The position numbers and the translations under genes are program-made. From positions 1 through 35,247 of IMG/VR virus record IMGVR_UViG_3300049489_000438: DNA of 35,247 nucleotides. One strand, 5' to 3'. The notes beneath the pieces are model-generated. The model saw only the letters and a list, made by a program, of their open reading frames with translations, searched no databases and had not been told where the DNA came from. The stretch is from a virus. Of this stretch, positions 2,430-35,247 are shown piece by piece; within the stretch, counting starts at the first letter, position 1, and each line of letters starts with the position of its first letter.

Positions 2430-2813
2430 TCATGTGTAACTAAATAGTGTTGAGGGGGCTTGGGTCTGGGTTCGGCTTACATTATCACCACGGCGAGCCT
2501 GTGTGGTTTTTCTCCTTATTTTCACCCAGAACTAAACCTCCTAACTGATAAGTGGGCTTGCGGGGAAGGCTCTATCGCAGTTGAGAGTCATCATCTTTAG
2601 GATTTGCTCCCCTTGGATTTTTAATTCCTACTCGTTTGCAACCGAGTGAGCCTTTTATCCGTAGAAACTGCATCCCCCGTAAACCCGCTTATCTTTGTAA
2701 AAGAACTGAAATCTATAGGCTCACGGGATTTTGAGAACTAGATTTCTCTGGCCGCGTTATTCTTTGTATTACCGCGAATCCCACGAACCTATTGATTTCT
2801 AAGGAACTGTCTA
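2430..2813 (-). ncRNA. Candidate structured noncoding RNA of unknown class
   Basis: This stretch of about 380 nt has no plausible gene on either strand but is full of complementary segments. On the minus strand, 2693-2673 pairs with 2567-2547 over 21 positions with two C-A mismatches. Inside it 2671-2666 pairs with 2582-2577 (GCAGTT with AACTGC), and hairpins lie at 2647-2630 (ACTCG with CGAGT) and 2627-2598. Upstream, 2746-2739 pairs with 2715-2708 (GAAATCTA with TAGATTTC). A long-range match joins 2724-2718 to 2652-2646 (GTGAGCC with GGCTCAC), which could make a pseudoknot. An extended -10 (TGCTATAAT) ends at 2820, predicting a transcript start near 2813. I could not fit it to tRNA, tmRNA, RNase P, or group I or II introns. 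The strand is inferred from promoter and gene direction. Confidence 0.55.
2547..2693. repeat. Long imperfect inverted repeat (21-nt arms)
   Basis: The arms at 2547-2567 and 2673-2693 are inverted copies that differ at only four positions, all transitions. On either strand they fold into a helix with 17 Watson-Crick pairs, two G-U wobbles and two A-C mismatches. The 105-nt interval holds further nested hairpins. Confidence 0.85.
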
Positions 2814-2819
2814 GGGGAG

Positions 2820-2828
2820 ATTATAGCA
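2820..2828 (-). promoter_or_regulatory. Extended -10 promoter element before the structured RNA
   Basis: The minus strand reads TGC-TATAAT, overlapping the stop of the HNH gene. The only -35-like hexamer upstream (TTGACT) is 21 nt away, too far for a normal spacer. The element would start a transcript near 2813, at the edge of the structured noncoding region. Confidence 0.45.
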
Positions 2829-3336
2829 TATTCAGGTACTTCATGCAGTCAATTATTGCTTGGGAAAGTGGATAAATTTGCTTTTCTTTTGAGAGGAGTT
2901 TTTGCCAGCGTTCTTCGCCAAGCCACTTTTTCATAAACAAAGTGTATTGTCCGTCCCACCCCTGCTTTTCTACACGTTGTTTTTGGTATTCGTAGCCGAG
3001 GTCTTTTGATTTGAAGTGATGATACCAGCAAAGGGCTATGAGATTATCGGGGTCGTATCTCGTTGCTTTGTGGGCGCGTCCGATGTAGTGAGAGCATTGG
3101 AGTTTCTTTATGTCGGTTACGGTGCAGTTAGGAAACATACATTTTCCGTCCCTTTCTCTAACGTGGAGAGATATTTCGTCATCGGCACGTTTCATTGACC
3201 ATATTCGTGAGCCTAATTGCTTCTTTGCGTGTTTGCGTAGTTTGCGCTGAGATGCCCTTAATTTCGCTTTTACGGCGTTGTTCGCACCCTTTTTACTCCA
3301 TACACGGGGCTTTCTCTTAAAACCTGAGCGTTTCAT
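2821..3336 (-). CDS. HNH endonuclease
   Basis: The 171-residue protein has a very basic N-terminal third and an HNH nuclease core. Cys66, Cys71 and Cys103 with His106 or His107 form likely zinc ligands. SHYIGRAHKATRYDPDN supplies the His83 and Asn98 of the motif. Such metal-dependent nucleases sit beside terminases in many phages and can assist DNA cutting at packaging; others resemble NinG or homing enzymes. The ATG at 3336 overlaps the stop of the upstream 53-residue gene (ATGA), so it is preferred over a GTG six codons earlier. The gene ends directly at the promoter of the structured RNA, so a mobile intron or homing association is worth considering but not shown. Confidence 0.85.
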   Translation of the reverse strand: MKRSGFKRKPRVWSKKGANNAVKAKLRASQRKLRKHAKKQLGSRIWSMKRADDEISLHVRERDGKCMFPNCTVTDIKKLQCSHYIGRAHKATRYDPDNLIALCWYHHFKSKDLGYEYQKQRVEKQGWDGQYTLFMKKWLGEERWQKLLSKEKQIYPLSQAIIDCMKYLNML

Positions 3337-8353: not shown

Positions 8354-8992
8354 ATGGATAAAAAAAATAACACAGGTTTAGAAAATACGGGTTACCGCAA
8401 CTCGGGGGGCTACAACTCGGGGTACTACAACTCGGGGAACTGGAACTCGGGGTATTTCAACTCGGGGAACCGCAACTCGGGGAACTGGAACTCGGGGTAT
8501 TTCAACTCGGGGAACTGGAACTCGGGGTATTTCAACTCGGGGAACCGCAACTCGGGGAACTGGAACTCGGGGTATTTCAACTCGGGGAACTGGAACTCGG
8601 GCTTTTTCAACACCAACTCACCCGACAAAATCCGTATCTTCAATACGTGGGTAGAAATGACGCACGAAGAGTTCAACCAAAAATACAACATTTACGCCGA
8701 CATTCCCCTCAACCGTTGGATAGATATAAAAGATTGCACCGAAGAAGAAAAAACAAAGGAGTGTAGAGAAATGGGTGGCTATCTCAAAACCCTTCCGTTC
8801 AAAGAAGCGTTTGTCATTTGGTGGAATGAAAACCCTGGCAGACATAACGACTTCCTATCACTCCCCGCATTTGACGCTGATATTTTCTTTGAAATCACAG
8901 GCATAGACGTACGCAAAAAGGAAATCTCCCTCAAAGGCAAGAAAGTGAAAGTAGAATTAGACGGGGTGAGTTATACAGCAACGATTGATTAG
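8354..8992 (+). CDS. Pentapeptide-repeat protein with conserved C-terminal domain
   Basis: Residues 6-85 are sixteen pentapeptides of the form N-S/T-G-x-x, the second pentapeptide class (Asn and Gly every five residues) rather than the A-D/N-L class that mimics DNA. They should form a regular beta solenoid. The remaining 127 residues form a globular domain with W-EMTHEEFNQKY, IPLNRWIDI, a MGGYLK segment, IWWNENPG and LPAFDADIFFEITGID. This domain combination is recalled from other phage genomes but has no assigned role. The repeats use almost identical codons, a sign of recent expansion. Confidence 0.85.
   Translation: MDKKNNTGLENTGYRNSGGYNSGYYNSGNWNSGYFNSGNRNSGNWNSGYFNSGNWNSGYFNSGNRNSGNWNSGYFNSGNWNSGFFNTNSPDKIRIFNTWVEMTHEEFNQKYNIYADIPLNRWIDIKDCTEEEKTKECREMGGYLKTLPFKEAFVIWWNENPGRHNDFLSLPAFDADIFFEITGIDVRKKEISLKGKKVKVELDGVSYTATID
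8369..8608 (+). repeat. In-frame 15-bp tandem repeats with a 75-bp higher-order duplication
   Basis: Sixteen 15-bp units of the form aactcggggNNNNNN encode the pentapeptides. Five-unit blocks at 8444-8518 and 8519-8593 are identical over all 75 bp. The array can expand or contract by slippage or recombination, and short reads may miscount it. Confidence 0.95.
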
Positions 8993-11347: not shown

Positions 11348-11356
11348 TGGTATAAT
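11348..11356 (+). promoter_or_regulatory. Extended -10 promoter element inside the rightward operon
   Basis: TGG-TATAAT lies 7 nt before the ATG at 11364, in a short gap after the Mom-like gene. No -35 is visible. It could restart transcription in the second half of the operon with a leaderless mRNA. Confidence 0.5.
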
Positions 11357-13948: not shown

Positions 13949-14065
13949 GTGGGTAATCTGGGTGCAGAATAGCGTACCATTTTCAATCTCCTATTATCTT
14001 CCCACCCTGTTTTGTTCTGAACGACCACAGAACAAACTAACCACAACAAAACCCCCTTTCGGGGG
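13949..14065 (+). ncRNA. Possible small RNA between lysin genes
   Basis: A transcript from the TATAAT box at 13937 would run about 115 nt to the terminator. It would contain a 9-bp perfect hairpin (TTTGTTCTG at 14011-14019 with CAGAACAAA at 14028-14036, loop AACGACCA) and the terminator stem. No frame of useful length is present. An untranslated operon tail is an equally good explanation. Confidence 0.25.
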
Positions 14066-14081
14066 TCTTTGTTTAGTTGTG
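14042..14081. terminator. Bidirectional transcription terminator
   Basis: CCCCC at 14052-14056, loop TTTC and GGGGG at 14061-14065 form a tight hairpin flanked by complementary AACAAA and TTTGTT and by CACAAC and GTTGTG. On the minus strand it is followed by a T-rich run (TTTTGTTG); on the plus strand by TCTTTGTTT. It lies exactly where the rightward and leftward units converge. Confidence 0.85.
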
Positions 14082-14090
14082 TCGCCTAAC

Positions 14091-14501
14091 CTATGCGTCA
14101 ATTAGGCGACCACATGTCCATAAATGCTGCCTTCCTTTCATTATTTGGCTAACTAGGAAGTTAAGGCTGAAGTTTGGGTTCTGTGCCTGTTCTTTAGTAA
14201 TTGTGGGATTAGATGGGAGATGGATTTGCACCAACCCCCACGAATCTTCTCTAAGTCCCCCTGATACTATCCTACTTTGTAGCAATGGGTCTAATTCGTT
14301 ATTCTCACACAAAACAATTTTAAGTGCGGTGTCTGATACTTGAGTGTCTCCACCAGAAAACTCAAGCAGTAGATGTTTTATTTCTTCAAGCCTTTCTGTT
14401 CTTGTTCCTTGCCATACATCCTCTTCATGCGTAGGAGATTCAGCATAAGCAGGGTTAAGAAAAACAAGGCTAATAAGAAGCGCAGAGACAAGTTTTTTCG
14501 T
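14091..14501 (-). CDS. Secreted lytic transglycosylase-like lysin, apparent ACG start
   Basis: The frame encodes 136 residues if it begins at ACG (14501). There it reads as KKLVSALLISLVFLNPAYA, a textbook signal peptide cut after residue 20. The mature part has Glu66 in LCENNELDP and SWGLVQIHLP at 87-96, matching the catalytic Glu and GLMQI-like motif of SLT/goose-lysozyme fold enzymes, which cleave glycan strands. No ATG, GTG or TTG exists upstream before an in-frame TGA. Either ACG is used as a start, or the ATG has mutated or been misread (one T-to-C change). An internal TTG at 14312 would remove the signal peptide and catalytic Glu. Late lysis location beside holin and M23 fits. Confidence 0.7.
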   Translation of the reverse strand, partial: TKKLVSALLISLVFLNPAYAESPTHEEDVWQGTRTERLEEIKHLLLEFSGGDTQVSDTALKIVLCENNELDPLLQSRIVSGGLREDSWGLVQIHLPSNPTITKEQAQNPNFSLNFLVSQIMKGRQHLWTCGRLIDA

Positions 14502-17489: not shown

Positions 17490-18353
17490 TTAATTAGACC
17501 AGATAACCTTCATGTCTGCTAATATGCCTGTCGCGTTTAGTGCGCCGTTGGGTAGGCACACAAAGTTTAAAAAAGCGTCAGGTTTTATTTCGGGCAGATT
17601 ACTTGATTGAATCAAGTAATCTGAGTTTGACGTTGCGGTTATCTCTAGTATAGCGGTTGAGACAAGTGGCTTTACAAGCACGAGAGAGAAGAGACCGACA
17701 TCAGTCCCTAACATTGTAACACTTTCTATGCTTCGAACTCCTGTATCGCCATCTTGAAGTGGAATAAAGAGGCAGGAATTACCGTTTGTTGCTGTCGCTG
17801 ATGTGACTACCACACCGAGAGCAGCTGAGGTGTTTTCTATGACAGTCTGGCTTACTCTACCAGATACACCGTCTTGGTTTGTATAGTTGATGAAGAAGGA
17901 TTGTCCACCTGTTCTACCAGCAACCGATACAGCCATGACTCGCACACCGTCTCCGTCGGTATAGCGCGTAAGTGTGTTTGTGTTGTCCATCAACTGCTCA
18001 TCCGTCGTACCCTCGTCAATAAGTGGATAGTACATGAGGTAGTCCATGAGAATCATAGACATAGGGAGTGCTGTTGAGGCTGTCGCAGAGAGAGTCGTAC
18101 TTCTAAGGTACTTCTTAGCGGGAGTTACATCTGAACCATGGAAGAAACCACCGTCTGATGATTGCGTAATGACAGTGGCGGCTAGAGGTGTACCGAACCA
18201 GTATTTAGGAATGGGATTACCTGGAGAAAGAGCAAGGTCAAACCATAAGCCTGCTGTTGTTGTCTGTGACGGGTTTTTACGAAAATTGTATATATTCACC
18301 CTGCCCTCAAGTTCGGCATCGGCAACTTGTTTGATTCCATTTATCGCTGTCAT
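17490..18353 (-). CDS. Virion structural protein, paralogue of its neighbour
   Basis: The 287-residue protein has a beta-rich composition. Shared features with the adjacent 390-residue protein are the order GGxxxASGYTKH/HGSDVTPAKKYL, a central LIDMVGFYR/LMDYLMYYP hydrophobic block, QxGDTGVRSIE and a C-terminal hydrophobic VIWSN/FVWN end. It lacks the inserted beta domain. Its ATG overlaps the stop of the 52-residue gene upstream. A capsid or tail surface role is likely; no specific family is recognised. Confidence 0.65.
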   Translation of the reverse strand: MTAINGIKQVADAELEGRVNIYNFRKNPSQTTTAGLWFDLALSPGNPIPKYWFGTPLAATVITQSSDGGFFHGSDVTPAKKYLRSTTLSATASTALPMSMILMDYLMYYPLIDEGTTDEQLMDNTNTLTRYTDGDGVRVMAVSVAGRTGGQSFFINYTNQDGVSGRVSQTVIENTSAALGVVVTSATATNGNSCLFIPLQDGDTGVRSIESVTMLGTDVGLFSLVLVKPLVSTAILEITATSNSDYLIQSSNLPEIKPDAFLNFVCLPNGALNATGILADMKVIWSN

Positions 18354-33446: not shown

Positions 33447-35200
33447 TATCGTTGCCCTGCTGGAAGTACGCTTTCAATCTTAGACGGTTGTGCAGCAACT
33501 GTTCTTGGGTCTACACCCTGTGCTTGGGGTGCGCCTTGTGCGGGGGCTGGCGAAGCACCAAAGGTGGTGGGGCTTATACCCGATATTTCCATCATCTCAT
33601 TCACAATAACGCTACGCTGTGGGTCGCCTTGCGGTAAGTTTTGGAGTGCTACAGCAAGGGCATTAAGTTTGCGCTGTGAGTCCTCCATTTCGTCAGTAAT
33701 GTTGAAGCGTACCTTGGTGCGAACTTTGTCTACGGTTATATACCCCGCTGGTATCTCAATCGTTCTATCGTTACGTGTAGAGAGAACGTCCTCAACACCA
33801 ACTTGTATACCCGCAATAGCCTCGGGTGTAATTTCATCTTCAGACTGAATCAAGGCATCAATACCGCCGTTATTCATTTCAACCCGAACGGCTTTATCAA
33901 TAAGCCGTAACTCTTTTGCTGAATACGAAGCCGTAAGTTTGTGTGCTTTGTTTATCTTCTTAATCAGGTGAGGAACTACCCAATCGACAAGGACTTCTTC
34001 AACATCAAAGCCGTCATCGTCTCTGCGCTTGTTAAAGATAGAACCACCCTGTGCGGCTTGTAATGCTTGTGCGGCGAAAGGAACACCTGCCTTAGCTTCT
34101 TCACCCGTAACCGCATTAAACGTTGATTGGTCACGCTGTGTGTTCACAAACCATGAGTCAACAACATTTTGGAATTGAGGTAGTGCCGCAGGAACAAGTG
34201 ACATGCTCTCAAGATATTCATTGTCTCGAAGTTCAATAATTTCACCATCGAGAAGAGACGCGGCAGAAGGAATGTCGGACTTCTTATTCGTTTTGAGAAT
34301 AACTTTTCCTGCCATGTCCATAGCAAACTTCTCTGCTATAACTGCATCATTAGTCCAAATCTGTGGTTCAAAGACTTCTTCCCAAACACCAATACCAAAG
34401 TCTCTATTTTCTACGGACTTTCTCTTAAAGTGCTTGAACCTGCTTTCCTTTAGTTCTGTGCAGAACAGACGGTACTTCTTTCTGTTTACTACAGCCAAAA
34501 CCACGTTATAGAGACCAAAATCAAGCGTGTCTGCGTCCGCGTATTCTTCAAAGTATGTTTTCGGGAACTCACCTTCAATATCAAGTATTTCAATTTCTTT
34601 GTTGGGGTTTTTTGACTTCTTGTGTATCTCAATCACTTCGTTGATAACGTCTGTGTCCCAGATATTAGATTTCTTTCTAAGTTCAAGTGCTGATAACTCA
34701 AACTTTTCTACCTTTGCACCGCCCGTTATGTCTTTAGGGTTTACCGCAACGTTATTCCATTTGACCACATCAATAAACAGTTCCCCGTTTGCTTCTGTCT
34801 TCTTTAAAAGTACTGAACCGAACTCAGACTTCTTGCGCTGGTATTCATCAATGAAACGTCCAAACTTGTTGTCGCGCATCCACTGTTGAAGTTCTTTGTT
34901 GATGACAAGAGAGAACACGTAGTCCCCATCTGTTGCACTGGCCTCAATAGCCTTTCGGTCAATGTTCTTAGCCCTAAACTCAACGTCCACTATTGCGTTG
35001 CCGATGTTGCGGAATGGCTTACGCCTTTTCAGTTGGTCTTCCTGCCCGTCAAGATACTTTGAAAGTATGTAGTAAGTAATGTTCTTAATTAACTTCGGGG
35101 CGTTAAATTCAATACCCTCAACAATAGTGATAGTCCCCTTCTCATACAGGGAAATGAAATCTTCTATCTCAGAAAGAAATTCGTTTGTTACGTTGAGCAT
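33446..35200 (-). CDS. Portal protein
   Basis: The portal ring at one capsid vertex lets DNA in and out and joins the tail. From the ATG at 35200 the protein has 584 residues. An upstream TTG at 35230 would add ten, but the ATG is preferred because a TATAAT box ends 9 nt before it. Supporting segments are KPFRNIGNAIVDVEFRAKNI, SEFGSVLLKKTEANGELFID, VKWNNVAVNPKDITGG and a C-terminal helical part around GVPFAAQALQAAQGGSIFNK. Length, position between terminase and scaffold, and this block order are typical. The Pro/Ala/Gln-rich end is low complexity. Confidence 0.85.
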   Translation of the reverse strand: MLNVTNEFLSEIEDFISLYEKGTITIVEGIEFNAPKLIKNITYYILSKYLDGQEDQLKRRKPFRNIGNAIVDVEFRAKNIDRKAIEASATDGDYVFSLVINKELQQWMRDNKFGRFIDEYQRKKSEFGSVLLKKTEANGELFIDVVKWNNVAVNPKDITGGAKVEKFELSALELRKKSNIWDTDVINEVIEIHKKSKNPNKEIEILDIEGEFPKTYFEEYADADTLDFGLYNVVLAVVNRKKYRLFCTELKESRFKHFKRKSVENRDFGIGVWEEVFEPQIWTNDAVIAEKFAMDMAGKVILKTNKKSDIPSAASLLDGEIIELRDNEYLESMSLVPAALPQFQNVVDSWFVNTQRDQSTFNAVTGEEAKAGVPFAAQALQAAQGGSIFNKRRDDDGFDVEEVLVDWVVPHLIKKINKAHKLTASYSAKELRLIDKAVRVEMNNGGIDALIQSEDEITPEAIAGIQVGVEDVLSTRNDRTIEIPAGYITVDKVRTKVRFNITDEMEDSQRKLNALAVALQNLPQGDPQRSVIVNEMMEISGISPTTFGASPAPAQGAPQAQGVDPRTVAAQPSKIESVLPAGQR

Positions 35201-35247
35201 TTTAGTTTCATTATACCCCCCTCGTTTCAATCTTTCGCATGATTGTT
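35121..35247. repeat. Direct terminal repeat, right copy
   Basis: This is the second copy of the 127-bp end repeat. It carries the portal start and the portal-terminase junction. Only one copy should be counted in the true genome. Confidence 0.97.
35210..35215 (-). promoter_or_regulatory. TATAAT box at the terminase-portal junction
   Basis: A perfect TATAAT on the minus strand overlaps the stop codon of the large terminase gene (across the circular joint; also at 90-95). It ends 9 nt before the portal ATG. There is no -35 or extended TG, so promoter strength is uncertain. Confidence 0.4.

Follow-up and report, generated by a model that had tools for sequence, protein, structure and literature searches.

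The window, that is the whole stretch of DNA analysed here, is the 35,247-base IMG/VR virus record IMGVR_UViG_3300049489_000438, belonging to an uncultivated phage. Positions 1-127 are identical to positions 35121-35247, 127 being a common assembler word size, and from these identical ends the genome is probably a complete circular assembly of 35,120 bases, or a circularly permuted one. The virus list carries the record without an end-repeat remark, despite these ends. A leftward block of genes extends from about 5.6 kb and takes in a DnaD-like gene, a weakly NinB-like gene and a gene encoding a NinG/Rap-like HNH endonuclease, followed by the candidate RNA stretch studied here; beyond it lie a 57-codon frame, a gene encoding a small Cys-rich protein (Zn protein), terS, terL and the structural genes (Table 1). 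The genome is otherwise tightly packed with genes and contains no tRNA. No reverse transcriptase was found among the proteins scanned, and a retron or a diversity-generating system is rejected on this ground. Further along, positions 8388-8611 show a tandem repeat array encoding NSGNW/NSGYF repeats.

Table 1. Features of the leftward block around the non-coding stretch (positions are those of the window).
Feature	Position	Strand	Remarks
Possible -35, TTGACT	2847-2852	minus	Weak; 21 nt from TATAAT (too far), 16 nt from TATGCT
HNH endonuclease gene (NinG/Rap-like)	2821-3336	minus	phrog_5034, 3.4e-13; 3' end complete (alignment with L086 and L087)
Extended -10, TGCTATAAT	2820-2828	minus	Exact match; overlaps the HNH stop codon; 5' edge of the RNA stretch
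Structured non-coding RNA candidate, about 375 nt	2440-2814	minus	MFE -117.9 kcal/mol, z -4.38; predicted 5' end 2814-2809
Closing stem P1, 5' strand	2806-2814	minus	Pairs with 2448-2440: 7 Watson-Crick, 1 G-U, 1 A.C
Closing stem P1, 3' strand	2440-2448	minus	Pairs with 2806-2814
Arm A, 23-position helix with two apical hairpins	2708-2799	minus	z -6.34 minus, -4.05 plus
Arm B, 21-position helix with inner hairpins	2547-2693	minus	z -4.60 minus, -5.45 plus
Arm C, 22-position imperfect helix	2449-2545	minus	z -1.75; alone no better than chance
57-codon coding-like frame	2256-2429	minus	Codon score 0.30 bits per codon, like real genes
Small Cys-rich (zinc-ribbon-like, Zn) protein	1983-2255	minus	Homologue in L087
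terS promoter box, TGGTATAAT	1982-1990	minus	9 nt before the terS ATG
Terminase small subunit, terS (P22 gp3 type)	1505-1972	minus	PF16677, 7.4e-16
Terminase large subunit, terL	91-1557	minus	phrog_38, 2e-95

The stretch between the HNH gene and the 57-codon frame is non-coding, as the preliminary description had it: between 2440 and 2820 the longest stop-to-stop frame has about 50 codons and the codon score is near zero. Its minus-strand fold compares with -91.4 +/- 6.0 kcal/mol for shuffled sequences, none of 100 shuffles being as good; the plus strand reaches -115.6 kcal/mol (z -3.16). The fold shows two strong arms, A and B, which exceed chance against shuffles, a weak arm C and a closing stem. 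Arm A is the strongest element of the stretch. Its helix (2799-2777 with 2708-2730) has 19 Watson-Crick pairs, three G-U pairs and one A.A mismatch, and the pairs 2799-2794/2713-2708 have a base-pair probability of 1.00. When both strands of the genome are scanned in 100-nt windows, arm A ranks third in stability against shuffles; only the convergent terminator at 14.0-14.1 kb and one window within a gene of the tail region score better. The first of these, 14011-14110, is the most stable 100-nt window of the genome and contains terminator-like hairpins between convergent gene blocks; the tail-region gene contains a very stable hairpin at 17531-17630 on the minus strand (z -7.4). The helix of arm B (2693-2673 with 2567-2547), already seen in the preliminary description, is present with 17 Watson-Crick pairs, two G-U pairs and two A.C mismatches over its 21 positions. 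Arm A had been overlooked there: the 8-bp stem proposed between 2746-2739 and 2715-2708 exists as a match but competes with this much stronger helix, and the long-range match read as a pseudoknot, likely GTGAGCC (2724-2718) with GGCTCAC (2652-2646), uses bases already engaged in arm A.

Stability of this order had been held to be rarely accidental, which is true against shuffles but not against real phage gaps. Among 98 intergenic gaps of related phages, examined in a rough control with 15 shuffles per gap, 19 score z -4 or below on one strand, and therefore the stability of the fold alone is not rare among phage intergenic gaps. Chance also often produces closed multibranch folds of this size (89 in 168 gaps, counting both strands); the closing stem therefore carries little weight and was dropped as a hallmark. 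The mismatches do not decide the strand of the RNA: the main outer helices, 75 positions in all, comprise 61 Watson-Crick pairs, seven G-U, five A.C and two others on the minus strand, where G-U barely exceeds A.C, and on the plus strand the two counts swap. Arm A is the exception and favours the minus strand, where it shows three G-U pairs, no A.C and 16 unbroken pairs as RNA.

The extended -10 at the 5' edge of the stretch, also recognised in the preliminary description, belongs to a recurrent arrangement. The motif TGNTATAAT is found five times in the genome, where 1.0 would be expected, and none of 100 shuffles reaches five. Five of the 22 TATAAT boxes are followed by an ATG within the range of 5-11 nt (about 0.1 expected), all five lying 6-10 nt ahead of an ORF with 50 codons or more, and a sixth lies 8 nt ahead of a shorter ORF. 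The boxes in this arrangement are at 95, 1987, 3617, 14829 and 25371 on the minus strand and at 11351 on the plus strand, and they often overlap the stop codon of the preceding gene. This spacing suggests that genes with such boxes make messages with almost no leader, and it renders the box at 2828-2820 credible as a promoter. Its hexamer (2825-2820) should start an RNA at about 2813-2809, inside the closing stem, and is the exception to the near-leaderless rule, since what comes after it is a structured, non-coding run of 375 nt. No minus-strand terminator-like site was found in the stretch, nor after it before the next gene. The gene after terL, like terS, has its own TATAAT box. The same TATAAT-ATG arrangement is found before the HNH gene of a related locus (L086).

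The 57-codon frame shows no ATG, GTG or TTG near its beginning and is preceded by a TGA. Its stop overlaps the ATG of the next gene (TAAATG), and it lies one base out of frame from an ATG at 2425; this offset may stem from a frameshift, from a broken gene or from misassembly at a T run. Reading TGA as a sense codon to rescue the frame is rejected, 18 of 50 genes ending in TGA, and a search for relatives of the frame found none. A second start-less coding-like frame lies at 14501-14091 on the minus strand; it begins at ACG with a signal-peptide-like sequence (TKKLVSALLISLVFLNPAYAES...), adjoins a holin-like gene and has no Pfam or PHROG match.

The TerL protein has relatives with 66-68% identity in four loci (L089-L092), which carry other TerS modules where the loci cover the upstream side. 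In one of them (L092, 2192-3214) a protein judged by eye to be reverse-transcriptase-like is encoded a few genes upstream of terS. The best syntenic relative, L087, shows the HNH (55% identical), Zn protein, TerS and TerL genes in the same order, and there the Zn frame overlaps the HNH stop codon with no insert between them. Since L087 joins these two genes directly, the RNA and the 57-codon frame are accessory, either gained here or lost in L087.

DNA, pattern and covariance searches of IMG/VR loci, phages, plasmids and sampled Patescibacteria, collections from which records close to the window may be missing, revealed no homologue of the RNA. DNA searches gave no homology in phages and plasmids and only chance-level short matches by blastn in 380 Patescibacteria genomes, and a 17-mer of arm A occurs in two places in IMG/VR, both unrelated. 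Two covariance models were built, R1 for the whole RNA and R2 for arm A. R1 recovered only the window itself from about 180 related loci, 14 whole related records or genomes and 192 Patescibacteria genomes, and R2 only the window itself from about 100 of the related loci; as each model is built on one sequence, distant relatives would escape it, and an empty answer of this kind without a positive genome shows little. The covariance models of Rfam 15 gave no match at gathering score. At E <= 10 there were five chance-level matches (E 1.4-6.4), all outside the families considered by name (group I and II introns, pRNA, ROOL, GOLLD, HEARO, 6S, RNase P and tmRNA). Thus none of the Rfam families fits, even at E 10. 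The earlier proposal of a promoter-driven structured RNA outside the known classes is supported as a candidate.

We give about an even chance to the reading that the stretch is a promoter-driven phage RNA, either stand-alone or the short leader of a unit formed by the 57-codon frame and the Zn gene. Transcription, which we infer, would run leftwards on the minus strand from the extended -10 at the end of the HNH gene, and the RNA, of about 375 nt, would start within the weak closing stem and fold into arms A, B and C. Because boxed genes are otherwise almost leaderless and terS has its own promoter, the product would be the RNA itself, or no more than a structured leader for the 57-codon/Zn unit. 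A role as regulator, suggested earlier, is possible. The RNA might act through binding to a protein, to the ribosome or to another RNA, or through modification of the polymerase that transcribed it; all of these are guesses, binding in trans being the first to consider. The promoter box that fits the genome-wide TATAAT-ATG pattern, the lack of coding, the stable fold and the absence from L087 speak for the RNA. Against it stand its orphan status, which offers no covariation, the undecided strand (arm B being better on the plus strand counts against a minus-strand RNA), the frequency of structured gaps, the lack of a terminator and the single assembled genome.

Less probable, though still to be considered, is a cis-acting structured 5' leader of the 57-codon frame and Zn protein, perhaps with read-through into terS, which would control elongation or translation. 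Its position would be that of the late leader in lambdoid phages, between replication-type genes (DnaD-like, NinB-like and NinG-like) and packaging genes on the same strand, and there is no terminator ahead of the next gene; but separate boxes precede terS and the gene that follows terL, which makes such a leader dispensable for the late genes, and L087 lacks the RNA. The leader RNA of the lambda late promoter (pR') likewise has its own promoter and lies between nin-type and packaging genes. The window RNA resembles this leader and the HK022 put RNAs in position and in having its own promoter, but differs in that its terS has a separate promoter, no terminator is present and no Q-like gene was recognised. 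For lambda the comparison stays at the level of position. Assignment to the late leaders or put-type antiterminators is disfavoured, given the late genes' own TATAAT boxes and the lack of a minus-strand terminator-like site in the stretch.

An element acting as DNA, three tandem imperfect inverted repeats serving as a packaging (pac) or other recognition site, is unlikely. The proximity of terS, the strand-neutral mismatch pattern and the fold of the stretch as DNA (z -3.26) agree with it, whereas arm A shows only short exact runs as DNA, a promoter sits at the edge of the stretch and L087 lacks it. In addition, GC skew does not turn at the stretch, for which reason a replication origin is rejected. 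We doubt to a similar degree that the stretch is a decaying insertion, left over from a mobile element or from a broken gene, whose hairpins have no function: it is absent from L087 and adjoins a start-less frame one base out of frame, but the rest of the genome is densely packed, the two strong arms are well preserved and the promoter box is intact. A self-splicing intron with the 57-codon frame as 3' exon, an earlier suggestion, would explain a coding signal without a start codon but is very improbable, as the HNH proteins of the window, L086 and L087 share the same end point, no other start-bearing 5' exon is present, neither group I nor group II introns match at E <= 10, and L087 has no gene that such exons would rebuild, nor any extra gene between HNH and Zn.

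The candidate phage RNA was also compared with known RNA systems. ROOL and GOLLD are large, highly structured, phage-encoded RNAs of no known function (PMC12286853). The window RNA is likewise large, structured and phage-encoded, but these RNAs are often near tRNA islands and are covered by Rfam models, and GOLLD often exceeds 800 nt against 375 nt here; with no model match and no tRNA context, membership is rejected. Like the pRNA of phi29, the candidate is a phage RNA near packaging genes, but a phi29-type motor is expected to lack TerS, and, to our knowledge, phi29 has no TerS/TerL pair of this type. The window contains a P22-type TerS together with TerL and no Rfam pRNA match, and its syntenic relative lacks the RNA, so the packaging pRNA suggested earlier is disfavoured. 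A HEARO/IscB guide RNA also adjoins an HNH gene, but here the HNH protein is NinG/Rap-like, not IscB, and HEARO has no match at E <= 10.

An orphan phage RNA is plausible, and as a single sequence it gives no evidence of a new class, which keeps the claim modest. Provided that it is transcribed, this would be a sizeable phage RNA that no Rfam family covers, encoded in a genome whose promoters are otherwise almost leaderless, and a concrete candidate for learning the function of large phage RNAs. That promoter-driven, multi-armed RNAs form a new class, located close to packaging genes in phages whose messages are almost leaderless, seems improbable; under this reading, two elements in other loci would be analogous cases. 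The first (L010, 234-503), immediately ahead of terS, is a multibranch element enclosed by a 21-bp closing stem (z -3.99); TATAG direct repeats lie on both sides of it, and it is either an inserted element or an RNA. The second (L160, 3866-4188, from an Ignavibacteria MAG) is a structured element right after a TGTTATAAT box at a gene end, with no Rfam match at gathering score. Neither gave a model match as a relative of the window RNA, and both are treated as unrelated to it. Among the other loci, one phage contig (L142, 2794-3303, minus strand) contains three type II hammerhead ribozymes, and L256 (5830-8211) shows a 793-codon TerL frame with, as judged by eye, an intein-like insert after the N-terminal part.
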